From Odiellus spinosus (Eukaryota; Arthropoda; Arachnida; Opiliones; Phalangiidae), in the NCBI GenBank assembly GCA_963920705.1, contig OY987226.1:4838501-4902500 (forward strand): DNA of 64,000 nucleotides, written 5' to 3'. This document shows positions 17,796 to 43,461 of the stretch, in pieces; position 1 is the stretch's first letter, and every line of letters begins with the position of its first letter. The notes beneath the pieces are model-generated. The model was not told the origin of the DNA and made no database searches. It saw only the letters and a program-made list of their open reading frames with translations. The translations under genes were made by a program, and so were the position numbers.

Positions 17796-19340
17796 ATGTA
17801 TGAGGGGTGTGAGCGGATTCCAATCAAGATAGAGAAGGACGAGGAGGACTGGCTCATGGGTGGTGAGCCCGACACGTCCCATTGCAAAGAGGTCAAAAGA
17901 GAACCGGGGTCACCAGCGGGAGAGAAAAAACAAAAAAATCCGAGATATAAAGGAAATATAAAAACACGCGCGATAATTCATTCTGGTGAAAAGAAATTCA
18001 AATGCAACAAGCCCGCTTGCGAGTATTCTACTAATTATAAAAAAAACTTGAAAACACACGCGTTAATTCATTCAGGTGAAAAAAAATTCAAATGCGACAA
18101 ACTCAATTGCGAGTATTCTACTTATTATAAAAGTAGTATAAAAGCACACGCGTTAATTCATTCAAAGGAAAAGGAATTTAAATGCGACGAGCCCAATTGC
18201 GAGTTTTCCACTAATTATAGAACCAATTTCAAAGCGCACGCGTTTACTCATTCAGGGGGAGTGGGGTTCAAATGCAACCACATCAATTGCGAGTTTTCTA
18301 CTAATTATAAAAGTAGTTTAAAATCACACGAGAAAAAACATTCAGAGAAAAATAAACTTAAATGCGACGAACTCAATTGCGAGTATTCTACTAATTATAG
18401 AAATAATTTAAAAGCACACGGGTTAATGCATTCAGAGCAAATGCTCAAATGCGAGAAGCCCACTTGCGAGTTTTCTACTAAATTTAAAAGTAATTTAAAA
18501 AGGCACGCGTTAATTCATACAGAGGAAAATAAATTCAAATGCGAAGAGCCAAATTGCGAGTATTCTACTTATAATAAGATGTATTTAAAAGAACACGCGT
18601 TAAAACATTCAGAGGAAAAGAAATTCAAATGCGACAAATGCGAGTTTTCTACTAATTATAAAAGTAGTGTAAATTCACACGCGCTAATTCATTCAGAGGA
18701 AAAGGAATTCAAATGCGGCGAGCCCAATTGCGAGTTTTCTACCAATTATAAAAGAAATTTAAAAGCACACGCTTTAAGACATTCAGAGGAAAAGGAATTC
18801 AAATGCGAAGAGCCCAATTGTGAGTTTTCTAGTTATTATAAACATCATTTAAAACCGCACGCGTTAATTCATTCTGGTGAAAAGAACTCGGAAAATAAAT
18901 TCAAATGCGACGAGCCCAATTGCGAGTATTCTACTATATATAAAACAGGTTTAAAAAGACACACGTTAATTCATTCAGAGGAAAAGAAATTCAAATGTAA
19001 CGAGCCCAATTGCGAGTATTCTACTTATTCTAAAAGTTATTTAAAAGCGCACGCGTTAATTCATTCTGGTAAAAAGAACTCGGAAAAGAAATTCAAATGC
19101 GACGAGCCTAATTGCGAGTATTCTACTAAATATAAAAGAGGTTTAAAAAGACACGCGTTAATTCATTCAGAGGAAAAGAAATTCAAATGTGACAAGCCCA
19201 ATTGCGAGTATTCCACATATTCTAAAAGTTATTTAAAAACGCACGCGTTAATTCATTCAGAGGAAAAGAAATTCAAATGCGAAGAGCCCAATTGCAAGTA
19301 TTCTACTTCTCGTAAGAAATATTTAAAAAGCACTCGTTAA
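17796..19340 (+). CDS. C2H2 zinc-finger protein, 14-finger array, truncated by frameshift (tandem copy B)
   Basis: A paralogue of the gene at 14939, 514 residues as read. The N-terminus is nearly identical (IKIEKDEEDWLMGGEPD, VKREPGSP) but the degenerate first finger is shortened. Fourteen intact C2H2 fingers follow; one is the compact C-x2-C form (FKCDKCEFS). The fifteenth finger loses both His residues because one G is missing at about 19330: copy A reads TTTAAAAAGGCACTCG and copy B TTTAAAAAGCACTCG. The frame ends at KYLKSTR and stop, removing the conserved tail with VKIE and IKEE. Finger number and contact residues have diverged from copy A, so it is probably still a DNA-binding protein, but without the C-terminal SUMO-like sites. 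A sequencing error is possible. Confidence 0.8.
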   Translation: MYEGCERIPIKIEKDEEDWLMGGEPDTSHCKEVKREPGSPAGEKKQKNPRYKGNIKTRAIIHSGEKKFKCNKPACEYSTNYKKNLKTHALIHSGEKKFKCDKLNCEYSTYYKSSIKAHALIHSKEKEFKCDEPNCEFSTNYRTNFKAHAFTHSGGVGFKCNHINCEFSTNYKSSLKSHEKKHSEKNKLKCDELNCEYSTNYRNNLKAHGLMHSEQMLKCEKPTCEFSTKFKSNLKRHALIHTEENKFKCEEPNCEYSTYNKMYLKEHALKHSEEKKFKCDKCEFSTNYKSSVNSHALIHSEEKEFKCGEPNCEFSTNYKRNLKAHALRHSEEKEFKCEEPNCEFSSYYKHHLKPHALIHSGEKNSENKFKCDEPNCEYSTIYKTGLKRHTLIHSEEKKFKCNEPNCEYSTYSKSYLKAHALIHSGKKNSEKKFKCDEPNCEYSTKYKRGLKRHALIHSEEKKFKCDKPNCEYSTYSKSYLKTHALIHSEEKKFKCEEPNCKYSTSRKKYLKSTR

Positions 19341-20028: not shown

Positions 20029-20508
20029 ATGTATTCGATTCTGTGTCTCGTTCTAAGTTTCGTGGTCTATTGCCAAGCCATACCGGCGTACAACCAAAAA
20101 ATTTATAATTTTTTAAACGCCACGACTTCACTGAGTTTGGAAGGTTACCTACAAGACCCCAGTCAAGTCTACTTAGGAACGGCTTTTCCCTCGGACCAAG
20201 ACCTTCAATTTCAACTGGAAGTTAGTGAAAACAGGGGTCTGGGCACCTTCTTCGGAATATCTACCGTCGATTACGATTCGCCGAAATGGGCTCGTATTAT
20301 AGTCGACATTGTGTTCGATTGTAGCCTCGAGGACGACTCGGGACAATGGAACCAACCCTTGGGAAGATCTTCTATCAAAAGTGGACCTTTCATCTCAGCT
20401 GGTTTCACTTCGTTGACTTGGGGCGAGCTCTGGGATGTGAAAAACACTCTACCCGCGCAAGATAATATGAATTTAAAGTGTTTGATTTGGCTTACCACGG
20501 GTTACTAG
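20029..20508 (+). CDS. Short secreted MATH-domain-like protein, no BTB
   Basis: Single exon, 159 residues. The N-terminus MYSILCLVLSFVVYCQAIPA is a clear signal peptide. The rest aligns with the MATH part of the downstream genes, with a divergent core. The best match is the end: FTSLTWGELWDVKNTLPAQD then NLKCLIW corresponds to the F-x2-L...LLPNG-LTVQC-I strand pair of the paralogues. The WxIENF start is degenerate (IYNFLNATTS, which carries an NAT sequon). Only two Cys positions match the paralogues. No BTB-like sequence follows the stop. It is probably an extracellular or lumenal protein of unknown partner and the most diverged member of the cluster. The family assignment is an inference from pattern similarity. 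Confidence 0.7.
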   Translation: MYSILCLVLSFVVYCQAIPAYNQKIYNFLNATTSLSLEGYLQDPSQVYLGTAFPSDQDLQFQLEVSENRGLGTFFGISTVDYDSPKWARIIVDIVFDCSLEDDSGQWNQPLGRSSIKSGPFISAGFTSLTWGELWDVKNTLPAQDNMNLKCLIWLTTGY

Positions 20509-22313
20509 AGAAGTTATTGAACACTATAGCTATTATACCCGTCCAAAAAAAGATGGACGTGGCATTACAATATACGTAATACATGTAATTATATTATAAC
20601 ATTAAATTACAGCAATTCCTCTTACTTTGTTTCATTTCACAGCTGTTCGAAACAGTGATTTCCTTCCATTCGTGAAACTAAACTTAATTTAAAACGATTG
20701 TTAAATAACGTAAAAACATTATAATTATAAAAATTGTATAGTCTGAACAAGGCTTTAGTGACTTCCATAAATTTTCCTGCTTTATGCCCAATTTTTAGGA
20801 GTTAGTTTCCCTTATTTTCTGACAACCTTAAAATTTCCTGATATTTCTAGTTTTTGTATGACCCCTCTAATGAGCTTTATTTTTAGACTAAAGTTAGCTT
20901 CACACGTAACAATTTGAAACAGTTTCCAAACTGTTTTTAAAATGTTCAAATCGACTATTCAATTAGAGAATATTTTTTATCTTGATCAAAAGTCTACAGG
21001 GATGACCCCGAAACTCGATTGAAAATGCATTCAAATTGCGTAAAGGCCGCATTATTTGGTCTCTACGTTATTTGAGCTCTACGTTAAATCTATCCTGAGA
21101 CAAACGTCAATTTAAATTAATCTTGCGATTAATTATAAATTAGTTTTTAATACGAATACGAACTGAAATATAATTTAGAGGTCGAAATTGAAAGACGTAT
21201 TCTACGCCGTATAACAGAAAGCGTAGTCAATCGTTTAAATAGATTGAGAGCTGTCAGTTTAAAACCAGTTCCAATTTGGTTTCGTTGATTCATCTAGTCA
21301 ATTTGGGTTGCTTTACTAGACTAGAGACGGAGGAGGGAATCAATTTGACAACTGCGCAGGAAGGTATTGGGAACGGAAGTCTAGCGTTACGTAATTATAA
21401 ATCAAGATGTTCAATCCCAAATAAACTCTTTTGGTAACATTTATTTCGCAACAACGAACCGAATCTAAAGGGTTCGAGAATTTGGAGTGTAAACGGATTT
21501 AGGGGCCCTTTTGACTCAAACTGGAGGTTTGGTTATCGCCCTGTCGAAAGACACGTTGATCCACCAGTAAAAAAAAATTACAAACAAAAACTAGAAATCA
21601 ATGTAAAACGTAACAGGAAAATAGGCTTAGCTGGATTCAAGGAGATCCTGAATTTATTCGCATTGTAGAGTCAGCGACCAATCGATTGGAAGTCTCCAGG
21701 AGATCTTGCTTTAACAACGGGCCTTTGCTCATTGGCCCTGACCCTTCAATGCGAAGTAACTCAGGATCTTCATGAATACAGCTAAGCCTATTTTCCGGGT
21801 AAGTTTAAAATTTATTTCTAGTTTAACATTTAAAATTTTTACTAATGGACGATGGAATCGACAAAAAATACTTCTTATTACTAGGTTGCATTTTCCCCAA
21901 CCTTGAGCGGATTTCAAAGCCCACACACAACCTCAACGTACAGCCTATGAGTAGCAAAGCCAACGGTACACCCTTTACAGGAAATAATCGAAACGTTTAT
22001 TCTTATCAACAACTCGAACTTCAACTACACTTATAGCTATTGTATAAGAAGGTCAGCATATTATTAGCCTGTTTAGAAAAAAAAACTCCAAACGTTTATA
22101 CCCAATTCATTCAATTGATTAAATGAATAATAACCAAAAAAAAGTTTTGAAAAGCATTGAACTTTCTTCGAGTGGATCAATTTCAATAAAAGGATGTATT
22201 ATATAAGTAATACGAGTTTATATTGTAATAGAAAAATATGTATATCACGAATCTAAGGCGACAGCATCCGCATTAGTATCCCAACCGAAGCGGTCCTCGG
22301 AGGAACAAAAATT
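20509..22313. other. Spacer in the MATH cluster
   Basis: No supported gene. It holds an imperfect hairpin element at 21586-21827. A TTATATAAG string at about 22199 could be part of the promoter of the next gene, though it lies about 110 bases before the ATG. Confidence 0.45.
21586..21827. mobile_element. Hairpin MITE-like element
   Basis: Two arms of about 80 bases are imperfect inverted copies. The left arm has AAACTAGAAAT, GGAAAATAGGCTTAGCTG and AGATCCTGA...TTCGCATTG. The right arm has CAATGCGAAG...TCAGGATCT, CAGCTAAGCCTATTTTCC and ATTTCTAGTTT. No coding capacity. Target duplication is not clear. Confidence 0.55.
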
Positions 22314-24179
22314 ATGATGTTTCCAATCGCGTTGCTTTTCGGTATCGTTATCAACGGAGTGGCGTTGTGCGAAGTGTCCGATATTATGTTGATTACCAAG
22401 TACAAGGGGGAATACAAGAGAAAAATTACCTGGACAATCGAAAAATTCCTGGACATGCCCTATTTCGACGATTCCGAAACATATTACTATTCGAAAGACG
22501 AGCCCTATTTCCGAAGCCAAAAGTTTCCGCCTAATCCCGACAATGGAGTGAAATGGTCGTTTCGATTCGAATTCAACGACTATCCCAACAAACGATACGG
22601 ATTTGGATTGTTCTTGGATTTTCATCCGCCCAGTAACGTCTCCAGTCTCTCGGGTAATTATGATAGAATTCTTGGGGTGATTTCAAGCCCAGTGCCCCTA
22701 AACCCTTATCTGTATAGAATAAACTTATCTGTTTCGAGTATCAGATATTCTACAAATAAGTTAGAGGATAAAAACTGAAAATTTGTCTATTCAATATATT
22801 TTTAACTGATTTTAATCTCAGAATTATTTGTCCAAACTGATTCCATTTTTTATGAGCAGATATCTAAGGGTTAACCGATATCTGTCAATTTAACTCTAAT
22901 TCTATTATTTTCTCGAGAAATAATGTGCAATTACCTGACAATAGCTCGAATTAATCCTTTAAGCAGAAGCCGATGAAACCCTCCTTTGAAGTCTATTACT
23001 CCCGGGTCTTGTCTACCCTTCTCTGTATGGGTTAGTTTCAAAAAGCGCGATTCGTACGCCTCCTAGCGGTAGATATTTTCGGAGCGGGAGTTCGTCGAGC
23101 GAATATCTCTAGCTGCCTTGGAGTTCGTCATAAAAACGTCGTCGTTTGTGGAGAGAGAGAATTTCCAATTTTCCGTAGACAGGGGGGTATGAAGTAAGAC
23201 CCCTCCGATCTCGCAAAAATGGGAATTTTACCCATACAGAGAGGAGCGCTATATGGAACATTAGAGTAGTAGACTTCAAAGGAGGGTTTCATCGGCTTCT
23301 GCTTTAAGTGATTATTAATTTAAAAATAAATGGCTGACAGATAGAAGAACCGCATATAAAATAATATCAAACCGCATATAAAATAATATCAAATCTGGAA
23401 ATATTTTTATCCTAAATTCCTATAATTGGTAATGGCTCGGTATTGATGGAATGTCTAATACATGAACGGGTTTATAAAACAATACTATGGACTTAAGCCT
23501 TTTTTTCCCGGAAAAATAATAAAGGCATACAAAAATCCGCCCACTCCACGTTCACCGCAAAAAAATATTAATTGCGCATGTTCGCCTTCACCCTTCAGGT
23601 ACATGCCAATGCTCTAAAACCAAGGACTTCCGAGGAGAGAGCTTAGAAAAGGTAACCCGCAGCAACTCGTTCAGTTTTGAAAACTTCATCAGTCAAGTCG
23701 AAATGGATAACAACAAGAAAGAATGGCTACCGAACGGACAACTCACCGTCACGTGTATCGTCCAGGGTGAACTGAAACTGGACCGTAGTAACACCGAACA
23801 CCGTCTGCCGACGGAAATCGTCACGTCAACCCAATGTGGAAAGCAAATAGCCAGCGATTCGGCCTCCAAGATAGGCCTGAGGTTCCCTAGACGCGTCGGG
23901 GACTCGAAACAGGACGTCTTCGTCTCTTCAACCGGTAAAGAGTTTCATTTTCAGAAGGATATCTTGTTCGCCCACGCACCCGGCTTGAAAATGAACAATA
24001 ACGAATCAAAAATAAGTCTGTCCGATTTGTCCGACAAGGAGATGCAAGATTTTCTGAACTTTGCCTTGAAGGGAACCGCCGATAATTTGGAGGAAACGTG
24101 TCCGAAATTGTATAAGGTGGCTGGGAAATACGGATTTGATTGTTTGAAATTAACTTGCCAGGAAGTAATGAGGACTTGA
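22314..24179 (+). CDS. Secreted MATH-BTB protein (two exons, MITE in intron)
   Basis: Exon 1 is 22314-22653 and exon 2 is 23599-24179. The donor is TCGG|GTAATT, the acceptor CCTTCAG. The junction rebuilds a Gly codon and restores the paralogue motif: SSLSG joins TCQCS, matching SSFSG-SCRCG in the intronless gene at 25606. The product has 306 residues: signal peptide about 1-19, MATH from ITWTIEKFLDMPY to LPNGQLTVTC, then the clearest BTB of the cluster (DVFVSSTGKEFHFQKDIL, then DFLNFALKGTADNLEETCP and LYKVAGKYGFDCLKLTCQE). It ends there, without the BACK/3-box found in SPOP. All seven cluster cysteines are present. Unspliced, the frame stops at 22778 after a partial MATH domain. AATAAA is at 24268. 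By homology it is a substrate-binding fold; its lumenal or extracellular role is unknown. Confidence 0.8.
22964..23301 (+). mobile_element. MITE family 1, copy 1 (in an intron)
   Basis: 338 bases with terminal inverted repeats beginning CAGAAGCCGATGAAACCC, and a perfect 7-base target duplication CTTTAAG at 22957-22963 and 23302-23308. It sits wholly within the intron of the MATH-BTB gene at 22314, so it does not alter the spliced protein. Short open frames inside are not genes. Confidence 0.9.
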
Positions 24180-24267
24180 GTTATGCGAGCAAAAATTAAT
24201 TTCGGATGAATTACAGATCTAACTATATAGTTATTAATGCCTCATTAATGTTGTAATTATTCATTTT

Positions 24268-24273
24268 AATAAA
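24268..24273 (+). promoter_or_regulatory. Polyadenylation signal of the two-exon MATH-BTB gene
   Basis: AATAAA 89 bases after the stop codon at 24177-24179. Confidence 0.55.
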
Positions 24274-24723
24274 GAAACTCATTTTAAATATCGTACACAT
24301 TTTTCTATGGAAAACTATTCGTTTTTCAATGCATACGGAACTTAAGCCGCGTTCATATATATATTGGGGTCTTGGAATCGATTCCAAACTGTTTGAAAAG
24401 GTTGTACACTGCAGGAAACCGTTTTTTCTCGAATCGATTTGAATAGGTTTCTCGAAACTGCTTTTGGGAAGCATGCAGTTTCACGCCGATTCGGCTTCAA
24501 CAGCACAGACATATGAAAAAAAATATTAAATCGATTTATGTATGTTATGAGAGAGCCTTCCGGGCGATTTGAATATAGGTTTGATTTTACCATTTTAAAT
24601 CGATTTGAATAGGCTTGTGTGAACGTAGCTACAATATACCCAAGAACATGGAGATAGAAATTTTGACGCAGTGGACGTTTCTGCCATCTATACCAATACC
24701 CGAACTTAATTTGGGGACACCAC

Positions 24724-25005
24724 CAGGCTGGGAAATAAGGATTATTTTTGAACTGGACTTGTGGCCAGTAGAGCCCAAGTAGTTTAATTAAAAAACTGGA
24801 CATGGGCCAGTTACAATTTTCATGTGCTTGACAAACTGTCACTATGACGTAGGACTTTGACGTAGGCTTAGAAAAGAGACACAATTTTGGAATTAATTAA
24901 CTGGCCTTGTGGCCAGTAGATCCCCAAGCATTTAATTTTTAAACTGGCCAAGCTAATTTTTAAACTGGACTTTTGTCCAGTGAAACTGCCTTATTTCCCA
25001 GCCTG
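24724..25005. mobile_element. hAT-like MITE
   Basis: 282 bases with inverted ends CAGGCTGGGAAATAAGG and CCTTATTTCCCAGCCTG, flanked by a perfect 8-base duplication GACACCAC at 24716-24723 and 25006-25013. An 8-base duplication and CAGG-type ends are typical of hAT elements. Inside are several copies of ACTGG(A/C)C and GGCCAGT motifs in both orientations. No transposase. Confidence 0.85.
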
Positions 25006-25605
25006 GACACCACGTCCCAAAAATAATGCCACCCCACGTTCTTGCTGATTTTAATTCTCTCGTATAACCCATTCATACATGAAATTCGTATCTCTAAACC
25101 AGTAAAAGTAAGAAAAAAATATATATAACTAAGAATTTCTTTGATTCTATTAATCTCTTAAACTAAACATTTTTTTAATCTATTAATCTTAAAATTAAAT
25201 ATTTTTTAAACAGGCAATCTGGGTAATAAAATATCAATGTAAAACCTCAATATAACTAGAACCAGGTTGAATCTGTACCACGCGCAATGCTATAAACGCT
25301 ATTATCTCTTTGAAACCAAGGCATATAGTATTTAGCTCAAATTTTAAGCTGCGTTTTTTAAAACACTCACTCAGTCAGTAATAAGAGTTTCAAGGTGACA
25401 TTCAATACGCTTTATAGTCATCAAAGAAATTGTTATAGGAAAGTTAACCATTGTATCCTCCGTATCTATATCACGTAAGATATGATCCTTGTATAAAGAT
25501 GATAGTAAAATATATGCCTATTTTAATGAGAGAGAATCGACAGAAAATCATTTATAACTCGCGAACCTTAATTGAAAAAGTTCACATCGAAATTTCGTAA
25601 CGAAT

Positions 25606-26586
25606 ATGATGTCGCCAATCCGAGTAATATTCCCGTTGCTCGTAATACTCTTAACCACGAAGGCCAAGCAAGAATATAACTTAGTTTCCATGTTAACATC
25701 AAACGAAGGAGAGTACAAAACGGAAGTACGATGGAAAATTGAGAATTTCCTAGAAATTCCCTACGCCAAAAAGCACTTGAACAAAAACAACGAACCATTC
25801 TTCAAAAGCGAACCATTCCCGCCTAAATCGCCAAACGGAGTTAAATGGCAATTTTATATCGAACGAAATGGAAGCGAGACACTAAAGCGAGACAAAGAGA
25901 CTTCGATCAACTTGATGCTGCTATTCAATGCACCGGAAAATATATCCTCTTTCTCCGGTTCGTGTCGATGCGGAATTTTGAGCGCTAATGGAACGGAACT
26001 CAACGAAGTCACTTTGGTGAAAGAGGTGACGACGAAGGATCCCTTCAAATTTTATCCATTCGTCAATTTAAATCAATTAAAAACTAGTAACGATTTGCTT
26101 CCGAACGGGCACCTAACCGTACAGTGTATCATCGAGGGTCAATTGTTGTTGAACATGGATTCGACAAACGACGTTATTCCGACAAAGTTTACAATGCCGA
26201 TGGGCGATGAGTATACATGCCGCTCGAAAATAATTCAGGAAAATCTACATATTCTATCAAAATTCGATAGTAATTATACAGTTATTTATAATCTGGAACA
26301 AAAAAATTATAAACCTTTATATATAAATAGAGATATATTGTTTAAGGTTGTTCCCCTTAATTTTTACGCTTACGGCGAATGGCAGCCCTCACCGCAAGAT
26401 TTCGCGACTGACGCGGAAGTAGAAGACTTTCTTAATTTTGCCTTAAAAGGCGATGCGGACAATTTGGAAGAGACTTGTCCCCGGTTATATGAAGTCGCAA
26501 AAAAATTTAAGTTCGAGTGTTTGATGATTGCTTGCCAAAAAATAATATACAAATCCAAATGGCTAAACGGAGATATTTGTCAGTAG
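25606..26586 (+). CDS. Secreted MATH-BTB protein (single exon)
   Basis: 326 residues. Signal peptide MMSPIRVIFPLLVILLTTKA; MATH domain from about 44 (VRWKIENFLEIPY) through FFKSEPFPP...NGVKW, SSFSGSCRCGIL and LLPNGHLTVQCIIEG (about 180). A degenerate BTB region follows to about 315: LYINRDILFKVVP aligns with the BTB F-x-A-H-K-x-I-L strand, and FALKGDADNLEETCPRLYEV then KFKFECLMIACQK align with the YTGKAPNL...LL-AA-KY...LK-MC part of SPOP. There are four N-glycosylation sequons (NGS, NIS, NGT, NYT) and all seven cluster cysteines. There is no intron where the 22314 gene has one. The 5' flank TTATAAC...AGTTCACATCGAAAT...GTAACGAATATG matches that of the 28573 gene, its closest relative. Confidence 0.85.
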   Translation: MMSPIRVIFPLLVILLTTKAKQEYNLVSMLTSNEGEYKTEVRWKIENFLEIPYAKKHLNKNNEPFFKSEPFPPKSPNGVKWQFYIERNGSETLKRDKETSINLMLLFNAPENISSFSGSCRCGILSANGTELNEVTLVKEVTTKDPFKFYPFVNLNQLKTSNDLLPNGHLTVQCIIEGQLLLNMDSTNDVIPTKFTMPMGDEYTCRSKIIQENLHILSKFDSNYTVIYNLEQKNYKPLYINRDILFKVVPLNFYAYGEWQPSPQDFATDAEVEDFLNFALKGDADNLEETCPRLYEVAKKFKFECLMIACQKIIYKSKWLNGDICQ

Positions 26587-26689
26587 TTAAGTTGAATTCG
26601 TATTTAGTGATTTTTTAATTAAATAATACGATTCTCTGTATTACCCGAGTAATAATGTAGTTGATTTGTAACGAAATGAAATAACCTGA

Positions 26690-26858
26690 ATACAACAAAA
26701 GCGGACCAAAATTTAAAATGCCTTTCGTTATGAAAAGTAAAACCGACGTCACGCGTATGACGAAACAGCCTCATGTATGTTTTCAAAATTCGTGAGCTTG
26801 TCGCGAGATCAATTTGACAAGGACCGAATCGAGTCAGGTTGCGTGTCTACGTTAAGGC
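26690..26858. repeat. Long-TIR element, right half only
   Basis: Shares AAGTAAAACCGACGTCACGCG, GAGATCAATTTGACAAGGA and GAGTCAGGTTGCGTGTCTAC with the right end of the 29798-30883 copy. The left half is missing. Confidence 0.6.
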
Positions 26859-28517
26859 TACTTTCCAAGCAAAATAAGAAACAACCTAATTCTTTTTTTC
26901 CACAAAACATCTTCACCATGGCTATGAAATCAAAATTTAAGAAGAAAACAATATATAATTAAGAACGTCTTTGTTTGTATTAATCTCTTAAAATAAACAA
27001 TTTTAGAAACAGGCCATCAGGCAAATAAAATAATAGTTATATCAAAGTTACTCAAATATGAATGTTTCGGAGAGATTCTAATTGAATCTTCAGCATACGC
27101 AAAGTTTACGTGATATCTCTTCGAAACCAAGGAATAGTTTACAAAATGGAGTTAATCTTATTACGGGCTTAAATTTCAAGCCGAGTCTGTATCTCTCACT
27201 CTATTTTTGTTTGTCACTATATCCTCAGTCGAGAGTTCCAAGGTGACTTTCAATAAGACTTATCACCAACCCTTTGATGATAGACAAATCCCTATCACAT
27301 AAGATAAAGGCTCCCTTGATGTTTATATGATCTTTATTTTTAAAAATTTGAGATAAAATTCCATGACCAATCACGACGGCGTTTTAAAATCACGCACTAT
27401 AGAGAATAATCTCGTATCAAGGGCAGTTAAACGCTCAAAAAAGTTGAAATATAAAATCCTACGCGTGACATTAGATTCTTCTCTAAAACTCATGAATTAT
27501 CAAAACGTTATGATTGGTCAAGGAGTTTAATCTCAAATTTTCGAAATAAGGATAAATTTTATGAAGTCGCATCGTCCTTGGAAAAAGCGAATTTGAAAAA
27601 ATTAAAGTGTCCATTTAAGTGCGTCTGTTACTGGCGACCGTCGGCCTACACCGGCCTACACTAAAGTTACATATTTCCAGTTATTTAATTAATGGCTCCC
27701 ACAAAAAATGATAAAGAATCAAAGTGAAATATTATGTGGGAATAGTGACCAAATATTTTTATAATAGGAACGAATTATGGCTAGTAAAAGACAACAAGGA
27801 GATCATCCTTTGGTCCTGTCCGATCTTAAATAAACAGAGCCGGACCTACTGTAGAATCAAATACCTGACTTATTTTAAGACATATATTGGACATCTAAAA
27901 CATATAAACGGGAACTTTAAACATTCTTATGTTGGTACTTAAAATGAAACTTGTGAGAATATTTTTAAATTTTAATAGCGTGATGAAATTACATACGAAT
28001 GTGACTTTCATTTTGAAATATTGTTTCAAAATATTTTTTTATCGCTGCCATCAGTCAGAAACTTGATATTAGGTTGCCATTTAATAAATAGCTATACTAT
28101 CGAAAAACTACAAGCTAAAATCATTTGTGAAACCCCATATGTTATATATTATGCAATAAAATTAAGTAATTTAAAACAGATGTTGAATGCGTTTTAAATT
28201 AGACCACAAACAAATAATATACTATATTCTGGACAGCCAACCAGGGAACCAAAATTCACGGAATTTTGATCGACGGAGCCTATAGTTCGTCCTACAAGTA
28301 ACCATTCCTTTCGCGCTGTTTCTTTGATACTGTCTAATTCATCCGCGAATTTGTCTTACGCTGAAATAAAATTTTGTTTTGAATTTTATTTCGCCAGCAA
28401 ACCGTATTACGGCTTTGTAAACCCACGTGTTTTTTTATAAAACGCGATATTTAGTAACGCCGCTACATAAACATATTTAATCAACTATGATATTCGAGCC
28501 CCACTTCGTTAGTAAAG

Positions 28518-28525
28518 TATAAAAG
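28518..28525 (+). promoter_or_regulatory. TATA box of the MATH-BTB gene at 28573
   Basis: TATAAAAG 55 bases upstream of the ATG. It aligns with TATAACTC upstream of the 25606 gene. The shared AGTTCACATC after it is a plausible transcription start area. Confidence 0.65.
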
Positions 28526-28572
28526 CGAAAGCCTTGAAGAAGTTCACATCAAAAGTATAATTCGTAACGAAT

Positions 28573-29520
28573 ATGATGTTGCCAATCCGAGTAATATTCC
28601 CGTTGCTCGCAATAGTCTTAGCCACGAAGGCTACGCCAGAAAACAACTTAGTTTCCATGTCAACATCAAATGTTGGAAAGTACAAAACGATGGTATATTG
28701 GAAAATTGAGGATTTTCTGGAGATGCCCTACGCCAAAACGCATTTGAACAAAAACGGCGGACCATTCTTCAAAAGCGGGGCATTTCCGGCTCAATCGCCA
28801 AACGGGGTTAAATGGCACTTTTATTTGGAACGAAATGGAAGCGAGACGCTAACGGGAGACAACAACACATCGATCAACTTGATGCTAATTTTCAAGGCAC
28901 CACAAAATATATCCTCTTTCGCGGGTTCATGTCGATGCGGAATTTTGAGCGTCAATGGAACGGGACTCCTCGAAATCAGTTTGGTGAAAGAGGTGACGAT
29001 CAAGGATCCATTCGTATTTTCCCCATTCGTCAGTTTAAATCAAATAAAAAATAAAAATGATCTGCTTCCGAACGGAGATCTAACTGTACAGTGTTTCATT
29101 GAAGGACACCTGATGTTGAATATGGCATCGACCAACGACGTCATTCCAACAAAAATTACCAAATCCACACACGGTGGGCTATGCGGTTTAAAAATAGCTC
29201 AGGAAAATCTAAAAATTCTATCAAAGTTTGAAATCGATCCGGTAATGGAGATTTATGGACATAAAACATATTTCTACATAAATAGAAACATCATGGGTCA
29301 GAGTGTACCCGAAGTTACACAATCGATAAGTAGATGGCACACTTCGAATGAAGATTTCGCAACAAAAACAGAATTGAAAGATTTTCTAACTTTTGTCCTA
29401 AGAGGCGAAGCCGATAATTTGAGAGAGACTTGTCCCCGGTTATACAAGGTCGCCCAAAAATATAATTTCGTATGTTTAATGAGCACTTGCCAAAAAATTA
29501 TGAACTTTTTCAGTATTTGA
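28573..29520 (+). CDS. Secreted MATH-BTB protein (single exon)
   Basis: 315 residues, the closest relative of the gene at 25606. Signal peptide MMLPIRVIFPLLAIVLATKA; MATH with VYWKIEDFLEMPYAKTHLNK, SSFAGSCRCGIL and LLPNGDLTVQCFIEG; then the degenerate BTB with FYINRNIMGQSVP, DFLTFVLRGEADNLRETCP and LYKVAQKYNFVCLMSTCQK. All seven cluster cysteines are present. Sequons include NGS, NNT/NTS, NIS and NGT. It ends shortly after the BTB helices, with no BACK domain. The promoter has TATAAAAG at 28518 and the 3' flank has AATAAA at 29616. The high similarity to its neighbour and the duplicated upstream block indicate recent tandem duplication. Function unknown. Confidence 0.85.
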   Translation: MMLPIRVIFPLLAIVLATKATPENNLVSMSTSNVGKYKTMVYWKIEDFLEMPYAKTHLNKNGGPFFKSGAFPAQSPNGVKWHFYLERNGSETLTGDNNTSINLMLIFKAPQNISSFAGSCRCGILSVNGTGLLEISLVKEVTIKDPFVFSPFVSLNQIKNKNDLLPNGDLTVQCFIEGHLMLNMASTNDVIPTKITKSTHGGLCGLKIAQENLKILSKFEIDPVMEIYGHKTYFYINRNIMGQSVPEVTQSISRWHTSNEDFATKTELKDFLTFVLRGEADNLRETCPRLYKVAQKYNFVCLMSTCQKIMNFFSI

Positions 29521-29615
29521 GAAGCTGAATTAGTATATTATAAGTCGCATTGGGCTGATCTTTTTTTAATTGTAAGGTTATCTATACCATCTAAATACTA
29601 TTGTAGTGTATTTGG

Positions 29616-29621
29616 AATAAA
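29616..29621 (+). promoter_or_regulatory. Polyadenylation signal of the MATH-BTB gene at 28573
   Basis: AATAAA 95 bases after the stop, overlapping a second AATAAA at 29620. Confidence 0.55.
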
Positions 29622-29970
29622 TAAAATATCATTAAATCTAATACGAAAAACTCAAGATTTCAGATAAAGACGATTTCCTTCAAGGGACTGGAAACAAGGT
29701 AGGTTAATAATCAAACTTGAATCTATTAATATATATTTTGTGGTAGCATTTACATGTGTTTGCGAAATTTCTATCAGCAAAGGTTCTGATTTTGTTACAG
29801 TAGACAGGCAACCCGACTCGATTCGGGCCTTTTCTAATTGATAGGCTTTGCCTAAGTGGATGCCTACAACTTTTCGTTGTAAAATAAATCTCACGCCAAG
29901 CTCGCGAATTTAATCTTCAGCAATTGAAAAATTTTGGGAGACTGTTTTTACGTACGCTTGACGTCGGCTT

Positions 29971-30122
29971 AGAGGTTGGGGTTTGGACAAGATAATCCAT
30001 AAATATTTGGTTAATCAGTTAATTATGAATAATAATTAGGTAAATATTCGCGATTACATTGCATTTATCATAGACTTCCCGTGGATAATTTCAAATTTTA
30101 TCTTGTCCAAACGCCGACCTCT
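29971..30122. mobile_element. Small hairpin MITE with 10-base target duplication
   Basis: 152 bases. The left end AGAGGTTGGGGTTTGGACAA pairs with the right end TTGTCCAAACGCCGACCTCT. It is flanked on both sides by ACGTCGGCTT (29961-29970 and 30123-30132). A 9-11 base duplication points to a Mutator-like group, but this is an inference. It lies inside the long-TIR element. Confidence 0.8.
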
Positions 30123-30311
30123 ACGTCGGCTTTAGTTTTCATTTCCATGTCCTCCCATAGAATAACCAAAAAATGGGCTTATCCAGCAATTAGGAAAAAT
30201 CAAATTTTGGTACAAAATTGTCCAAATTAGATAAAATCCATCAGAATTCGATCAAATATGGATCAAAGTCATTTCAAATTTTGGTTCACTTTTTGTTGAA
30301 TTCAGTTTATT

Positions 30312-30648
30312 CAGAAGCCGATGAAACCCTCCTTTGAAGTCTATTACTCCCGGGTCTTGTCTACCCCTCTCTGTATGGGTTATTCTCAAAAGGCGCGATT
30401 CGTACGCCTCCTAACGGCAGATATTTTCGGAGCCGGAGTTCGTCGAGCGAATATCTCTAGCAGCCTTGGAGTTCGTCCAAAAAACGTCGTCGTTCGTGGA
30501 GAGAGAGAATTTCCAATTTTCCGTAGACAGGGGGGATGAAGTAGGACCCCTTCTAACTCGTAAAATTGGGAATTTTACCCATACAGAGAGGAGCGCTATA
30601 TCGAACATTAGAGTAGTAGACTTCATAGGAGGGTTTCATCGGCTTCTG
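30312..30648 (+). mobile_element. MITE family 1, copy 2
   Basis: 337 bases with CAGAAGCCGATG ends and a perfect 7-base duplication GTTTATT on both sides. Inserted into the long-TIR element 29798-30883, so it is younger than that element. Confidence 0.9.
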
Positions 30649-31356
30649 GTTTATTTCATTTGGACAATTTCATCGAATTCTTTTTGACCAAAAATTGATT
30701 TTTCCTCATTGTTTAATTCGATTTCTTTCGTTATGCTATAGGGCAAAAAGCAACTGTGACGTCACGAGTATGTAAAAACAGCCTCGGAATTTTTTCAATT
30801 CTTGAAAAGGAAATTCACGTGTTTGGTCGCGAGATCAATTTGATGAGGCCCGAATTGAGTCAGGTTTGCGTGTCTACTTTAAGGTGGATGCACCAGGGAG
30901 TAGTATAGAGTTGGGCGTGATATAGTTGGGACGTATTGCGAGTTTGACTCCTTAGGGCGGAAGCACATACAGCATCCTCTCTGGCGCTATTACTGTTTTT
31001 TAAAATAACTTTACATCGTTTTTCCCACGTGAATATTATACTAATAAAATTATTAAAAGATATTATCTGTCCTTTCAGACAATTGAGGTAATAAAGGTTC
31101 CTTTATTGCCTTTGATTACAGAGTCATTTTTGATTATGTTTATGGCGCAAGACGTTGAAACAGAGTTATCACTGTGTAATTTTAACCAGATGATTAAAGC
31201 ATAGCTGTAAAGTTTCTCATAAAAACCGCAATCTTTATCTCCTTATCTTCGAACATTCAAATAAGACTCATTATTATAATTTTCCCCATTTTTCTCGAAA
31301 ACTATTTATGTCAAACGGATTAACCGCGTAGAATTAAACCATCCTAGAGCTTCAGA

Positions 31357-32700
31357 ATGTTGCGGTTGTACGCTTTAATCGCCCTGCTAACCGGTTCCGC
31401 TTTGGGTTCCAAATATGCTGAAACCCATTCGGTAAACTTGCTAACCCAGGACGAAAATCAGTACAAAACAGTTGTCAAATGGACCATTGAGAATTTTCTC
31501 GAAATGCCTTACGTCAAAATGAGCCAATCGGGAGACAGACCTTTCTTCAAAAGTCAAAAATTTCCGGTTACATCGACTAACGAGGTTAAATGGTACTTTA
31601 CCATGGAATACGACAATAAGACTCAATCCGAAAACCAGATGGAATTATACAGTCAATCATGGATCTTCGACAACATAACCTGGTTCGACAACACAACCGG
31701 ATTCGACAACGAAACCGGATTCGACAACACAACCGGATTCGACAACACAACCGGATTCGACAACACAACCGGATTCGACAACACAACCGGATTCGACAAC
31801 ACAACCGGGTTCGACAACACAACCGGGTTCGACAACACAACCGGGTTCGACAACACAACCGGATTCGACAACACAACCGGATTCGACAACACAACCGGAT
31901 TCGACAACACAACCGGATTCGACAACACAACCGGATTCGATAACACAACCGGATTCGACAACACAACCGGATTCGACAACACAACCGGATTCGACAACCA
32001 AACCGGAATCATCAATGACGACACGGGCTTCAATTTGGTACTACATATCGAAACGAATTCTAGAATCCACGGTATGGGTGGTTACTGCGAGTGTTCGATA
32101 CTTGACGTCAACAACACGCGACATAAATCTAAAATCATTCGCCAAGAAGCGAGGAACAACGATCCTTTCTACTTCCGGTCGTTCGTAACCAGAACGGAAC
32201 TAGAAAACGAGGAAACTCTTCTACCGGACGGTGATTTAACTGTGGAATGCATTATAAATGGTCATTTGAAACTAGATCTGTCGACACAACACGACACAGT
32301 CCCGACGGAAATTGGAGGTAGAGATGGTTGGTTGTGTACCCGGGGTATCGCCGAACAATCTTTGAATATCGTTTTGAGTGATATTAAGGGTAGAACGGAA
32401 TTCATAGATATTAAATTCAAAGATGTTTACAACTACGCCAATTTGCGTATACGAAAGGATAATTTACTGGAACCGGTCCCAAAATTGATTAGTCGGATAT
32501 TTAATGGAGAGTGGGATGCCCAGAACGATTTCGTAAATATGCAACAGTTTCGGGATTTCATGAGCTTCGTTTTGAAAGGAGACGCCCCTAATTTGGAGAA
32601 GACTTGCAAAAGGTTGTACCAAGTCGCTGAAAAATACGAATTCGATTGTCTGAAAGTCGTTTGCAGCGATATTTTACAGAAAAATAGTACAAAGAAGTAA
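31357..32700 (+). CDS. Secreted MATH-BTB protein with a 19-unit sequon repeat
   Basis: 447 residues, single exon. Signal peptide MLRLYALIALLTGSALGSKY; MATH with VKWTIENFLEMPYVKM, FFKSQKFPV and EVKWYFTME. Then, in the loop before the next MATH strand (GFNLVLHIE), 19 six-residue units FDN(T/I/E/Q)T(G/W) occupy residues 104-217. MATH resumes with GGYCECSIL and LLPDGDLTVECIINGH, followed by the BTB-like part with DFMSFVLKGDAPNLEKTCKR, LYQVAEKYEFDCLKVVCSD. All seven cluster cysteines are kept, so without the insert it matches its paralogues in length. Every unit contains an N-x-T sequon, predicting a heavily N-glycosylated arm if secreted. AATAAA is at 32777. The repeat keeps all six frames open, so other frames there are artefacts. 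Confidence 0.85.
   Translation: MLRLYALIALLTGSALGSKYAETHSVNLLTQDENQYKTVVKWTIENFLEMPYVKMSQSGDRPFFKSQKFPVTSTNEVKWYFTMEYDNKTQSENQMELYSQSWIFDNITWFDNTTGFDNETGFDNTTGFDNTTGFDNTTGFDNTTGFDNTTGFDNTTGFDNTTGFDNTTGFDNTTGFDNTTGFDNTTGFDNTTGFDNTTGFDNTTGFDNTTGFDNQTGIINDDTGFNLVLHIETNSRIHGMGGYCECSILDVNNTRHKSKIIRQEARNNDPFYFRSFVTRTELENEETLLPDGDLTVECIINGHLKLDLSTQHDTVPTEIGGRDGWLCTRGIAEQSLNIVLSDIKGRTEFIDIKFKDVYNYANLRIRKDNLLEPVPKLISRIFNGEWDAQNDFVNMQQFRDFMSFVLKGDAPNLEKTCKRLYQVAEKYEFDCLKVVCSDILQKNSTKK
31666..32007 (+). repeat. 18-base minisatellite, 19 units, inside the MATH coding region
   Basis: Nineteen in-frame units of TTCGACAACACAACCGGA. Unit 1 encodes FDNITW, unit 3 FDNETG, unit 19 FDNQTG; the others encode FDNTTG. 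Differences between units are few and mostly silent (GGA/GGG, GAC/GAT), which shows recent expansion by slippage or unequal exchange. Confidence 0.95.
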
Positions 32701-33574: not shown

Positions 33575-34775
33575 TAATAGGTTTCTTAACTCCCTATAAG
33601 CCTAACTTAGAGGGAGCTATCTGGTAATTAACTTATAGCCCTACAAAATAGAGTCTGTTATCGTAAACAATTTAATTAAAATTTGTCCTATAAGAGACGC
33701 AGCACTTGAGAGAAAACACTTTTCGATTCTAAACCCTATTTATATTTAGGCCTAGCAAAAGCAACGAGTAATCCAACAAGATATAAACATAATTTCGTGA
33801 TCGCGTGATTCCCCAATGACACTTAAACACTCGACAAGTTTCTCGAGATTAAAAACTTTTCTTCCCAAAAGTTTAAATCTAATAAATATGGCAAAACAGG
33901 TGATCCACACGACATATTTTGGCCACAAAATACGATAATAAAAAAAATTTCAACGACATTTGATATAAAATATAAATGCTTAAGCACAATTTGTGAAAAA
34001 CAGCTGCCTCTCGATGACCACGCGTTTCAGAAACACTGCCTGAGATAAACTTGTATATTTATATACCTCTTATATATTATTAGATATCGTTATAGTGGTA
34101 AAAACCAACCACCCCTAATATTAAAGAATTCAAGATTTATATCAAATATGATCGTACATTTTCGTAGTGCCTTAATTAAACCGCGCTGATTATAACACGG
34201 TATTTTAATAAAACTATTGGTTTTAATTTATGCCAGAAAATAAATTAACATAATTTTATAAGAACCGCCTTGAGACCCTCTTGCGACTCCAGTTGGAGTA
34301 AATATATAAATGCTAAGCACCATGCACTCTCCGGAGAAATTCTGGAGACCCTTCTATATACCCTGGCTGAAAATCTTGAGGGAGAATCCATATCACTGAA
34401 GCGTAACAGGGGTGGTAGGTTTCGTTATGCACCGGCTCGAGCTTGTTTAGAGTACATTAGAAATTTTCTGCGTTATTACAATTATTCCTATAATAATTAA
34501 ATATTTTGCCTATATTATACCATTTTTCCTATCTTTCGAATATATTCCTATAATTGCCTACAGTTCCTATATACCAATTAACATTTTTTCCGGGGATTCG
34601 ATTACTTAGCGCCTTCCATTATACGAGTTATTTTGTTTTTAAAATTGCACTAGAAAAAGTAGTAAAATAATTTTTGAAAATTATTAAAATTGTTGCCAGA
34701 TCCACTGAAACATATATCTTTAAAAAGCTCGAGTGTATTATTTTCCATGAACTTGAATTTCAACCTAAATTATAT

Positions 34776-35112
34776 CAGAAGCCGATGAAACCCTCCTTTG
34801 AAGTCTATTACTCCCGGGTCTTGTCTACCCCTCTCTGTACGGGTTAGTTTCAAAAAGCGCGATTCGTACGCCTCCTAACGGTAGATATTTTCGGAGCGGG
34901 AGTTCGTCCAGCGAATATCTCTACCAGCCTTGGCGTTCGTTAAAAAAACGTCGTCGTTTGTGGAGAGAGAGAATTTCTAATTTTCCGTAGACAGGGGGTA
35001 TGAAGTAGGACCCCTCCGATCTCGTAAAATTGTGAATCTTACCCATACAGAGAGGCGCTCCTTATGGAACATTAGAGTAGTAGACTTCAAAGGAGGGTTT
35101 CATCGGCTTCTG
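34776..35112 (+). mobile_element. MITE family 1, copy 3
   Basis: 337 bases, CAGAAGCCGATG ends, perfect 7-base duplication ATTATAT on both sides. Confidence 0.9.
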
Positions 35113-35929
35113 ATTATATTTATAAAAGTACTATAAATTAATTGAAAACTCCCTATTTTTAGGGGTTTTAGAATAGTCGGCCTGATTTATTATCAATCAT
35201 AATTAAGTACTTATTGGTTGTTTCTCCTATAGAAAGTAAACCCGTACAGTAGGAAAACCAAGAGTACAGGGAAGTTGGTCACTCTCTTGTTACACAACTA
35301 AAGCGTCAGTGGCTCCCTTCTCCAAATATGTCCTTCTACTACTATACGATTTAGAAAGGTTGGTGGATTTTTTCGACTCCTAGAATTTAGTATTTAATAT
35401 ATAGTTCGCAAAGTAGTGAGATTGTGAGAAGAATTTCAAATGAATTCCTTAGAGGCGAAAATGTATAAAAGAAAAACGCTTATCCGCGGTATATCATTTT
35501 TTGACACCTTTCTAGCTTGATCTTTATTTGAATGTTTTGTTATTCAACGATGTCCAAATAGGAGGAGACAACCCCAAATTACCCGGCACCCATCTCCACC
35601 TCAAATTTTGATCGCGCTTACGTGAATTGAATGTAAAATTCAATATATTTATACCCGCTTCAAAGAGAATGATTCTGATGAAGATTTATATAGACAATAA
35701 ATTGTCGACGTACGTTTAGTTCGTAAAGGACGAAAGACTGCGTCAATAGTAAGTAACACTGATAGAATAGGAAGGTTGCTGCCAGCACGTAGATTATTTA
35801 GTGAAATATGAAGATTTCCCGCGCTTTTTGACAGGTAGAGTTTATATTAAGGTAGACAGACAACCGGACTCAATTCGGGCCTTGGCAAATTGATCTCACG
35901 CCAAGCTCGTGAATTTAATCACGAGACAT
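35113..35929. other. Gene-free spacer with a long-TIR element left end
   Basis: Mostly unique AT-rich sequence. From about 35851 it carries the left end of the long-TIR family (GGTAGACAGACAACCGGACT, CAATTCGGGCCTTGGCAAAT, CCAAGCTCGTGAATTTAATC). Family 2 copy A lies immediately after it. Confidence 0.5.
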
Positions 35930-36234
35930 CAAAAATATATTCAGGTTCCATAAGAATATGGGAGGATAGCTTTAGCCTCTGGTACCATCCTCCCAAACTT
36001 TGTAACAAAAGTTCGTCCGCAATTTTCGCAACATTTGTACGCTTAGATCTTTTTTCGGTCTGCTCCATTTTTATTACCCAAAATATTATGTCAAGGTCGT
36101 TAGTGACTATAATGTCAAGTGCGATTTACTTGAAAAATCGATTCGAAGCGGACGAACTTTCGCTACAAAGTTTGGGAGGATGGTTATTCAATCGCGGCCC
36201 TCCCATATTCTTATGGAACCTGAATGGATTCTTG
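35930..36234 (-). mobile_element. MITE family 2, copy A
   Basis: 305 bases. Ends match CAAGAATCCATTCAGGTTCC (left end mutated to CAAAAATATATTCAGG) and GGAACCTGAATGGATTCTTG, flanked by a perfect 7-base duplication GAGACAT. The internal sequence is inverted relative to copies B-D. A long open frame over it is incidental. Confidence 0.85.
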
Positions 36235-39200
36235 GAGACATTGAATAAATTAGCGAGGTTCTTTGTACATACGCCTGATGACGTCAGTTTTAGTTTTAAT
36301 TTCAGTGGGCTTTCAATGAATAACGAAAGAAATTATTTTGTTACATGATAATGAAAATAATTGCCTTAAATCCGGCCCTATACTTAAAGTAAAGGAATCA
36401 AACATGGCCTATAATATAGCTTTGTACTAGTTGCCAACACTCCAAGAGTGTCTCAGTGGAATTCCATATTTATTGTATTTAGGCTTAGCCGCTACGGAGG
36501 TTTTTTAACTCGTTCATTATTACATAACTCTCTTTGTCGAAATCGATCACGCGATTATATCATTAGAATTTCATCGCCAAATTAATGGTACGTCAAAATG
36601 TCGAATTCTATTTTATTGATTATTAAAGGGTGTACTATGACTGATAACTTTAGTATTGTTCCAATATGCGTAACTCTTATTTGTGGCTTTGTTTATATAG
36701 TCATTGAAAATGGATCAATCAATTGGTAAGCTTGACATTGAAAATAAGGGTTTTTAACAATATCTTGTACTTTTATAAACTATAGACCGGGATTTTCGGT
36801 CGCTCTATTAATGCGCTGATTCGGATTCGATCAATCACGCCGATTCGTTACACGTCAACGCGACTAATATACGCTGCCATATGTTGAATTATACTCGCTC
36901 GTAACTGCGGTTTAGGGTTAGAGTTAAGTTAATTGTATTCATGTTCGTTGTAAACACAATAGATCTATAGGAAAATTCCCAACAGGGAAAATACCTTCAA
37001 GGATCGAATAAACAAGGTATTCGGAGTTTTTCAATTTTAAGAGTATTTAATTGGATAAAATAATAAACTTGATAAATTTTCTAATGCTACATATTCAAAA
37101 TAATCTAATAATTAACTTCAATTTAGTTTTCAACTATAATTAAATATTTAAAAATTGTATTAAATCGTATAAATTACCCAATCTATCTTTTAAAACTCGA
37201 GTTAAGTTTCTTGAACAACCTGACTTGAAAATTATCCACCATACATCGAGCTCTAGCGGGTCAAGTTTGCTTGCTCATTATTTTTCAAGAGAGTAACCAT
37301 ATGAGAGAACTTTTCTAACTCATTTTATTGGGGATATATTATTTTTAAAATTTTACGTTTTAGCGAGCGAGGGCAAGCGCAACTAGGTTTTCAGCGAGAT
37401 TCGGAGCATTCTGAGATTATTAAAATTCAACCCCATGTTATGGGTCAAATGAGAATTAGTGAAGTTGTTAATTACGGCCCGATTTCGTAGTAATTGATAT
37501 AATTTCAAAGCTCTACCTATTCCAATATCTAAAGTAACCAAAAACGAGAATTTAAAGACTTATACTTTGAAGATTCGAATTTTGCACCTCAAAAGTTAAA
37601 CTAAAAGTCCGATTCCATTCTTTTCTACAATATTTTCACTAAAACAAATTTAAATGTTAAGACAGTTTTCCTATAAATATATATATATGAAGACCATCAA
37701 CTGCAGAGGTACGCGCCTTTAAGGTAGTTAGGAAAGCAAACCCATTAGTTTTTCGAGAGAGAAAATAGCGAAAGGGCATAAAAATACCATTTTAAACAAG
37801 CGTACTATATAGCTAGCTAGCCGCTTGTAGAGGGGGTATAAAAAGAAAATTGCTGGAGCTAATAAAAAGTTCAAATCGTTGCTTAAAATTGCCGCTTAAG
37901 GCGCGTAATACGTATAATACTCTCATCAACAAAATCTGATGACGGCCATGGTCGGCTAGGAACCAGGCTAATAGGTTTAGCGTAACCCCTATTTGTTAAA
38001 AGCGCTTCTAGATAAACCATCATCACTTATGACTAATAAACTGGGACATGCAACGTATTAAGCCGCGCTCAGAGGCACCAGTTTCATTAAACCAAGAGAT
38101 TCGGAGCTTCGTCATTTACTACTTCAAAGAGAAGATGAAATTGGGAAATTTTTAAAGTTGTAAAATTACCATAATTTTGGAAATTCCTAATTTACCATCT
38201 CACAGTAATTTACCTGGTATTCTCAGGTATATCTTATTTCCGTATAAACAACTCCTACACTCGTGAAAAATGTAATGTAACGTTTGACCATTTAAAGGGA
38301 GAATGCAACCTAACAACAAGTAATTGATTTTGCAATTTTTTGAAGCGTTTATGGCGTTTAAATTAATTTCTAACGTATGGTAAATTTTGAATAAAAATAA
38401 ATATAAATTTGGGCCAATCATATGATTTCCGACATTAATAGCGCTTGTAATGTCTTGACATTAAAATAATAGTCCGGCGTATTTGTCCAAGACCTTATAC
38501 ATGCCTATTCTTTTAATGTTAGGACATTACAAGCACTGTTGAAGGATGAATAATATGATTGACCCGAATTACAAAATTTTCAACATGTTTTCAAAATATC
38601 CTAAATCCAAATCAAAGAAAATACAAATATGGATGGAAAAATTCCGAACGAAACTAGGATCCCCCCATTCAGTTACATCCTCCCTTTAAAGATCGGTCTT
38701 TTATTATCCATAATTCGGTACCTGGTGCGAAATAACCGGTTTTCAGAAAAGCATCCCTCTCTACCACTCGGCTCTTACTAGCTTGGCAACTAACCCTCGC
38801 TCTAGTAAATACACTTTATTTAGATCTCCACTCAAAAATAAATCGGCGGGATGGGTAATTTTCGGAATAGTGGCATCCGAAATCGGTTACCTCCTACACA
38901 TCGCTCCTCTTTCATTAAACCGCGGCCCTAAGGACGCTAGCCGCTTTAAAACGCGTCGTTTTCCAACCCCCTAGATACCCGCTACGCCGCAAGCATACTC
39001 TGGAAGAGGACCTAAAACCACGCCCATCGACAGGGCTTGAACCTCTTGGAGAGCAGCTGTTAGATTCCCAGCGCCATCTCCTGGGTTCCCGGACGATGCT
39101 AGGCATTCGTTTTTAGTTGCGCTTAGTAAAATTACAAGTTAAATTATTAATATTAACAAATTGTAGTGTTTGGATAAAAAATGGATAACTATTATTAATA

Positions 39201-43145: not shown

Positions 43146-43461
43146 CAAGAATCCATTCAGGTTCCATAAGAATATGGGAGGGCGGCGATTGAATAACCAT
43201 CCTCCCAAACTTTGTAGCAAAAGTTCGTCCGCTTCGAATCGATTTTTCAAGTAAATCGCTCCTGACATTATATTATTAACCCGCGCCACTAACGACCTTG
43301 ACATAATATTTTGGTTAATAAAAATGGAGCCGACCGAAAAAAGATCTAAGCGTACAAATGTTCGAAAATTGCGGACGAACTTTTGTTACAAAGTTTGGGA
43401 GGATGGTACCAGAGGCTAAAGCTATGCTCCCATATTCTTATGGAACCTGAATGGATTCTTG
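43146..43461 (+). mobile_element. MITE family 2, copy C
   Basis: 316 bases, CAAGAATCCATTCAGG ends, perfect 7-base duplication ATAAATG on both sides. Confidence 0.9.

Follow-up and report, generated by a model that had tools for sequence, protein, structure and literature searches.

Predicted export of SPOP-like MATH-BTB proteins with signal peptides in Odiellus spinosus

We analyzed 64,000 nucleotides of the genome of the arachnid Odiellus spinosus (contig OY987226.1, positions 4,838,501 to 4,902,500; G000:C2:4838501-4902500 in our numbering), which we call the window. Four genes in the window, g2 to g5, encode an N-terminus that resembles a signal peptide, followed by a MATH domain and then a degenerate BTB domain. 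MATH-BTB proteins are textbook adaptors for Cullin-3 in the cytosol and the nucleus. We propose that g2-g5 and their relatives elsewhere in the genome, which are homologous to cytosolic, SPOP-like adaptors in this genome, are probably sent to the secretory pathway, where they would act as disulfide-stabilized ligand binders without a Cullin-3 role. The original prediction, made from the window alone, was of five MATH paralogues with signal peptides. This holds for g2-g5; in g1, a signal peptide is seen as well, but the MATH domain is unconfirmed. The gene models are:

g1, 20029..20508, forward strand: single open frame of 159 amino acids; signal-peptide-like at about residues 1-17; no BTB
g2 exon 1, 22314..22653, forward strand: signal peptide at about residues 1-19, then the first half of MATH
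g2 predicted intron, 22654..23598, forward strand: GTAATT...CTTCAG, with an element like a miniature inverted-repeat transposable element (MITE) inside from about 22963
g2 exon 2, 23599..24179, forward strand: the remaining MATH, and BTB with a QKDIL strand; the stop is just past the last BTB helix
g3, 25606..26586, forward strand: single open frame; signal peptide at about residues 1-20, MATH at 42-175, BTB with NRDIL
g4, 28573..29520, forward strand: single open frame; in tandem with its paralogue g3, to which the protein is 65% identical; same architecture
g5, 31357..32700, forward strand: single open frame; architecture like g3, plus a repeat within a loop of MATH
g5 coding tandem repeat, 31666..32007, forward strand: 18 bp x 19, FDNTTG units; 19 N-glycosylation sequons in residues 105-217

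The predicted intron of g2 (22654-23598) has the highest score of the six splice pairs listed. Once spliced, g2 encodes 306 amino acids that fit the family along their whole length, with the C-x-C motif restored. We also considered that g2 might be two genes, or one gene broken by a transposon, but a single predicted intron with good splice sites restores the whole protein, and we rejected both. The MITE-like element in this intron is about 330 bp long, has inverted ends (by eye), and is found in four copies in the window (22963-23310, 30311-30650, 34775-35115, and 46125-46454).

The genome has 443 Mb in 286 contigs, and 5 of the 10 contig ends that were read have TTAGG telomere repeats, which are of the arthropod type. 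PBP_GOBP gave no match, a negative that by itself carries no weight. Searching the genome with tblastn gave 24 matches for g3 and 30 matches for L008. At least eight further proteins have a signal peptide:

contig C2: L003, L004, and L005, MATH-BTB relatives with signal peptides
contig C11: L008, L011+L020, and L082, relatives with signal peptides (a two-part name indicates joined loci)
contig C6: L013+L012 and L015, relatives with signal peptides

This count is a lower bound because we omitted weaker or partial matches (L017, L018, L021, L036, L037, C2:24491203, C5:19776109, C11:5806855, and C11:18785792, among others). We refer to ten of the proteins as lineage A (g2-g5, L003-L005, L008, L011, and L013; mean column identity of 36%). 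For contrast, we used MATH-BTB proteins without a signal peptide: the SPOP of the same genome (L019), as well as L014, L016, L022, and L024. Profile A1 was built from the window rows only and profile A2 from the ten members across the genome. In viral and prokaryote collections, a pattern search gave 34 and 26 stretches, none of which was confirmed as a relative.

Homology to SPOP extends along both domains. When profile A2 was compared to the PDB, SPOP was matched across MATH and BTB with E = 1.4e-22 (55 sequences up to E = 10), which bears out the original prediction of MATH and then BTB in the four long proteins. A profile search for BTB had been proposed as a check, and BTB-only chains of SPOP were indeed found (E = 1.2e-12), along with MATH-only chains of SPOP (E = 5.4e-9) and then other BTB proteins. 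Profile A1 matched 24 distinct PDB sequences with E ≤ 10, and every one of them was SPOP (best E = 6e-11). In profile A2, the alignment to SPOP begins only at position 40-41, which makes the N-terminus an addition relative to SPOP. Comparing the family to the five cytosolic MATH-BTB relatives with hhalign gave 99.9% and E = 2.8e-36 over 296 columns. Matches to Pfam are marginal: at E ≤ 0.01, MATH_2 is found in 6 of the 10 members in A2, and BTB in 5 of the 10. Among the MATH-BTB genes of the window, only g2 exon 2 clears the Pfam cut-off (BTB, E = 3.2e-6, 27.7 bits vs. a cut-off of 20.5). The BTB match of g5 (18.9 bits) and the MATH_2 match of g3 (E = 4.1e-5) are under their cut-offs, and neither g3 nor g4 by itself matches BTB in Pfam. 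L082 and L016 match BTB only, and not MATH, in Pfam; against the profile of the whole family, they score 69.3 and 72.5 bits.

To describe the N-termini, we used the highest 11-residue mean of Kyte-Doolittle hydrophobicity within the first 40 residues. This was 2.11-3.05 in 12 of 12 signal-peptide proteins, 2.99 in a further one, L082 (within its first 30 residues), and 0.35-1.04 in all 5 of the cytosolic relatives, which had been sorted by eye beforehand. As a control, we considered the best 30 of 121 BTB loci, of which 28 contain a Met ahead of the domain. None of these 28 reach 2.0 at the N-terminus (the maximum is 1.78 for the first Met and 1.99 for any Met); these are the most canonical BTBs, some of them are also among the five contrast proteins, and the true first exon may be missing from their open frames. 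In each of the five window genes, the reading frame is closed by a stop 3-19 codons ahead of the ATG, and by eye, an acceptable cleavage site with small residues is present in each. None of the 13 signal-peptide proteins listed has a C-terminus of the KDEL type. Judging from these sequences, a lumenal location is very likely, and we also consider it likely that the proteins are secreted rather than resident in the endoplasmic reticulum (ER).

The cysteines of lineage A are what an oxidizing lumen would predict, and they make up the strongest of the new evidence. Six cysteines are invariant (C122, C174, C205, C291, C305, and C310 in the numbering of g3), out of 26 invariant columns in total. 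Put another way, 60 of the 81 cysteines in lineage A are in invariant columns, as compared to 200 of the 3,314 other residues, although these rows are related, so a Fisher P value for this contrast overstates their independence; the contrast itself is plain. The other MATH-BTB proteins (SPOP, L014, L016, L022, L024, L015, and L082; n = 7) have 23 invariant columns, and none of these are Cys. At the sites of C122 and C305, there is no Cys in the five cytosolic relatives, L015, or L082. The last BTB helices hold three of the invariant cysteines. A seventh cysteine, C120, is present in all seven members from contig C2, which gives them seven common cysteines, an odd number. C120 and C122 align with SPOP positions 102 and 104, and we take position 102 to be a residue of the substrate groove. 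Our guess is that C122 pairs with C174 within MATH and that C205, C291, C305, and C310 pair around the BTB helices. That the MATH-BTB fold was recruited to the secretory pathway, as originally proposed, is thus backed by a ten-member clade with signal peptides and six invariant cysteines.

In a tree of 17 proteins inferred with IQ-TREE (g1 was excluded), lineage A is a single clade (support 99/99). L015 and L082 group with the cytosolic proteins (support 99/99), and an earlier tree without L082 had the same shape. A constraint that joins all 12 signal-peptide rows was rejected (p-AU = 0.0023), so the signal-peptide label must have changed at least twice. With SPOP as the outgroup, the cheapest history may be one gain and one loss (on the branch with L016, L022, and L024), but the signal peptide may instead have been gained repeatedly. 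We abandoned two separate gains as a firm claim, as one gain and one loss also satisfies the tree.

The BTB domain has decayed in part of lineage A. As the original prediction stated, the HKxIL core strand is altered in the window (QKDIL in g2 and NRDIL in g3), and g2-g5 stop shortly past the final helix of BTB, with no 3-box or BACK. L003-L005 and L013 terminate there as well, although L013 has retained the strand's H. The SPOP of the same genome contains Pfam's BACK_BPM_SPOP. The contig-C2 branch as a whole lacks both the HKxxL strand and the tail after BTB. In contrast, L008 and L011, which belong to lineage A, retain an HK[DE]IL strand and a tail, and L015 and L082, which lie outside of lineage A, have intact BTBs with the HK strand and the tail. 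The description of the BTB as degenerate therefore applies mainly to the contig-C2 branch and not to these four proteins. Because L008 and L011 retain the strand and the tail, export does not require BTB decay, and export may have preceded the decay or arisen apart from it. The best reading is that the BTB of the window branch no longer serves Cullin-3. As for the MATH domain, the residues that we take to form the groove of SPOP (Y87, F102, Y123, and W131) are lost in lineage A, except that L013 has a W in the column of W131.

These genes look functional. The ratio of non-synonymous to synonymous substitution rates (dN/dS, by NG86) was finite for 9 of 11 pairs (0.37-0.80; two are cytosolic pairs) and saturated for the other 2. 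The highest value was for the cytosolic pair L024/L022, while g3/g4 was at 0.45 and L003/L004 was at 0.62. By region, dN/dS for g3/g4 was 0.37 in MATH and 0.22 in the last BTB helices; dN was highest, for the mature protein, in the linker and N-terminal half of BTB (0.45). Across the four pairs that were split by region, the linker and N-terminal half of BTB had dN of 0.37-0.53, and the last BTB helices were at 0.14-0.49, but this contrast is not uniform (in g4/L004, the value of 0.49 for the last helices exceeds the 0.23 of the linker). In the signal peptides of g3/g4 (22 codons), 6 of the 7 differences are non-synonymous, which is too few to interpret. The open frames and dN/dS give no sign of pseudogenes, and positive selection is unproven.

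The repeat in g5 has 19 copies of an 18-bp unit (95% match). It is in frame and encodes 18 FDNxTG units, each with an N-x-T sequon, and 19 of the 22 sequons in g5 lie in residues 105-217. The repeat aligns to a loop between two MATH strands, whose positions we take from SPOP. Outside of the g5 repeat, none of the 17 proteins is enriched in sequons relative to shuffled sequences (SPOP has the lowest P value, 0.058), and we rejected sequon enrichment there as evidence for secretion. L082 (G000:C11:21896500-21897720), with its signal peptide and canonical BTB, has five sequons.

We suggest that a cleavable signal peptide brings the chain into the ER, where the six invariant cysteines would form three disulfides that brace MATH and BTB in the oxidizing lumen. 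With no KDEL-type tail, the protein would then be secreted. The extracellular space lacks Cullin-3, and the window branch has lost the HKxxL strand and 3-box/BACK, so its BTB would be reduced to at most a module for dimerization and a scaffold, and the dimer is perhaps covalent via C120. MATH would go on binding the ligand through an altered groove, and the MATH loop of g5 would display about 18 hexapeptide repeats that can be glycosylated. The most likely job, though tentative, is to recognize a ligand outside of the cell, either a protein or a glycan, in the haemolymph or in a gland secretion. More speculatively, an intracellular E3-adaptor fold may have been exported in this arthropod lineage, its export signal having been gained or lost two times or more, and one of the branches may have turned into a recognition family that is diversifying and locked by disulfides. 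In such a family, BTB would be an extracellular dimerizer, and the MATH groove and the variable, glycan-coated loop of g5 would read foreign or mate-derived ligands.

Several observations weigh against secreted, disulfide-stabilized ligand binders. Four of the six cysteine sites are not exclusive to lineage A, as SPOP also carries a Cys at three of them (C174, C205, and C310) and the cytosolic expansion at the fourth (C291). L015 and L082 each have no more than one of the six cysteines, despite N-termini that resemble signal peptides. Past residue 25, 6 of the 10 members of lineage A have an odd cysteine count, and the disulfide pairs are a guess. Hydrophobicity by itself is not unique to signal peptides, as stretches away from the N-terminus attain 2.15 in L015 and 2.19 in the cytosolic L022, so the lowest N-terminal values (2.11 for g5 and 2.25 for L013) rest on their position and not their size. 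Furthermore, the models of g2, L011, and L013 depend on predicted splicing, and the cytosolic relatives have also diverged from SPOP in the substrate groove, so the altered groove is not special to the secreted proteins. The lack of sequon enrichment could be listed here as well, but we weighed it as neither for nor against.

Could these be ordinary intracellular MATH-BTB adaptors? The hydrophobic N-terminus would then be an artefact of the choice of start codon, with a later Met or an upstream splice being used, and g3 and g4 do have a later Met, at residue 29, ahead of MATH. However, the hydrophobic N-terminus is present in 12 of 12 members and not in the cytosolic relatives, stops lie close upstream of each ATG in the window, six cysteines are invariant across a ten-member clade, and the window branch lost the HK strand and the 3-box/BACK. 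We consider intracellular adaptors to be very improbable. Even more improbable is that these are decaying duplicates whose degenerate BTB reflects a loss of function. The dN in the linker and the N-terminal half of BTB could be read that way, but the frames are open, dN/dS is at 0.37-0.80 for most pairs, the six cysteines are invariant, and the last BTB helices have the range given above.

If the proteins do enter the lumen, they might stay there, in the ER or the lysosome, and contribute to quality control, for example. A signal peptide and conserved cysteines would suit any lumenal compartment, and excerpts of PMC3947992 describe a complex in which plant MATH-domain proteins are joined with PYK10, an enzyme of ER bodies. 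The lack of a KDEL-type C-terminus in all 13 proteins argues against ER residence, and the glycan-rich repeat of g5 would better suit an exposed protein, so retention in the lumen seems unlikely. Alternatively, the proteins might be secreted but have a structural or reproductive role (in a secretion matrix, seminal fluid, or egg coat) instead of recognizing ligands. The coding minisatellite of g5 resembles components of glycoprotein matrices, and tandem duplication with fast change is common in reproductive and gland proteins. We view such a role as possible, though with some doubt.

The status of g1 is less clear than that of g2-g5. It has no match in Pfam, and when we searched 1,506 frames from all six frames of the window with the family profile, g1 was absent at E ≤ 10. 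Below E = 5, that search recovered only g2 (as two exons) and g3-g5. Using hhalign, g1 matched the family profile with E = 0.022 and a probability of 2%; this score was equalled by 18 of 1,000 shuffles, or by 5 of 1,000 when the cysteines were held in place. The two cysteines of mature g1 align with C122 and C174 of the family, and g1 has one tblastn match in the genome. Its sequence suggests a MATH-like C-terminus, but full membership in the family is unsupported, given the weak hhalign result, the shuffles, and the profile search.

As for other features near the cluster, there are TATA-like words 54-83 bases upstream of g1, g3, g4, and g5, which are weak evidence in AT-rich DNA and were not used, and there is no such word in the 110 bases upstream of g2. 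Just upstream of the cluster is a tandem pair of C2H2 zinc-finger genes (14939-16390 and 17796-19340) with near-identical flanks (96-97%). Near-identical repeats, both direct and inverted (93-98%), at 41601-41919, 43146-43464, and 35930-36247 are probably another mobile element. Elsewhere in the genome, L027 (G000:C13:9285052-9287556) is a single open frame of 873 amino acids with five successive MATH domains. The MATH-BTB loci L017/L021 (on C8, a chromosome) and L018/L022 (on C244, a 245-kb contig) form a near-duplicate pair, by their matching scores, and possibly reflect a haplotig.

A single genome holds a graded series: SPOP; a cytosolic expansion; proteins with a signal peptide and an intact BTB; and proteins with a signal peptide, the cysteines, and a decayed BTB. 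If our reading is correct, then the series would show by what route an adaptor for degradation inside the cell can be exported and put to a new use, and the order of the steps could be tested. Also, the names "speckle-type POZ" or "TDPOZ" from annotation pipelines may not always mean an adaptor for a ubiquitin ligase.

Like SPOP, TDPOZ, and BATH proteins, this family has MATH and then BTB, with homology along both domains. Unlike them, it has a signal peptide and an invariant set of six cysteines, two of which are at sites that are not Cys in cytosolic relatives; in addition, the window branch lacks HKxxL and 3-box/BACK, and the groove residues of SPOP are mostly lost in lineage A. We did not find a secreted protein that pairs MATH with BTB among the papers listed in our literature searches, but subscription papers were mostly outside of this search, so absence is unproven. 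The excerpts of PMC5935387, PMC2895663, PMC6744408, PMC7217486, and PMC10509276 describe no secreted MATH-BTB protein; those of PMC10509276 do mention three BTB proteins of wild rice that are predicted to be extracellular, with the accompanying domains unstated. The original statement that a signal peptide on such a fold would make no sense was too strong, as there are a secreted BTB protein and extracytosolic MATH domains. LGALS3BP (90K, or Mac-2-binding protein) is, according to excerpts of PMC6026745, a secreted glycoprotein whose BTB has conserved disulfides and which forms dimers and rings. It shares a signal peptide and BTB with our family, but 90K consists of an SRCR-like domain, BTB, and IVR, with no MATH. 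There is no SRCR domain among the Pfam matches of the family members, where MATH occupies the place before BTB, and no 90K chain is among the 55 PDB matches to profile A2. In meprin alpha and beta, the MATH domain acts outside of the cytosol, in oligomer contacts (excerpts of PMC9581967). Meprins are M12A metalloproteases with MAM, neither of which is among the Pfam matches of the family members. Meprins are not known to have a BTB domain. Each domain alone was already known outside of the cell, in LGALS3BP and the meprins, and what appears to be new is their pairing.

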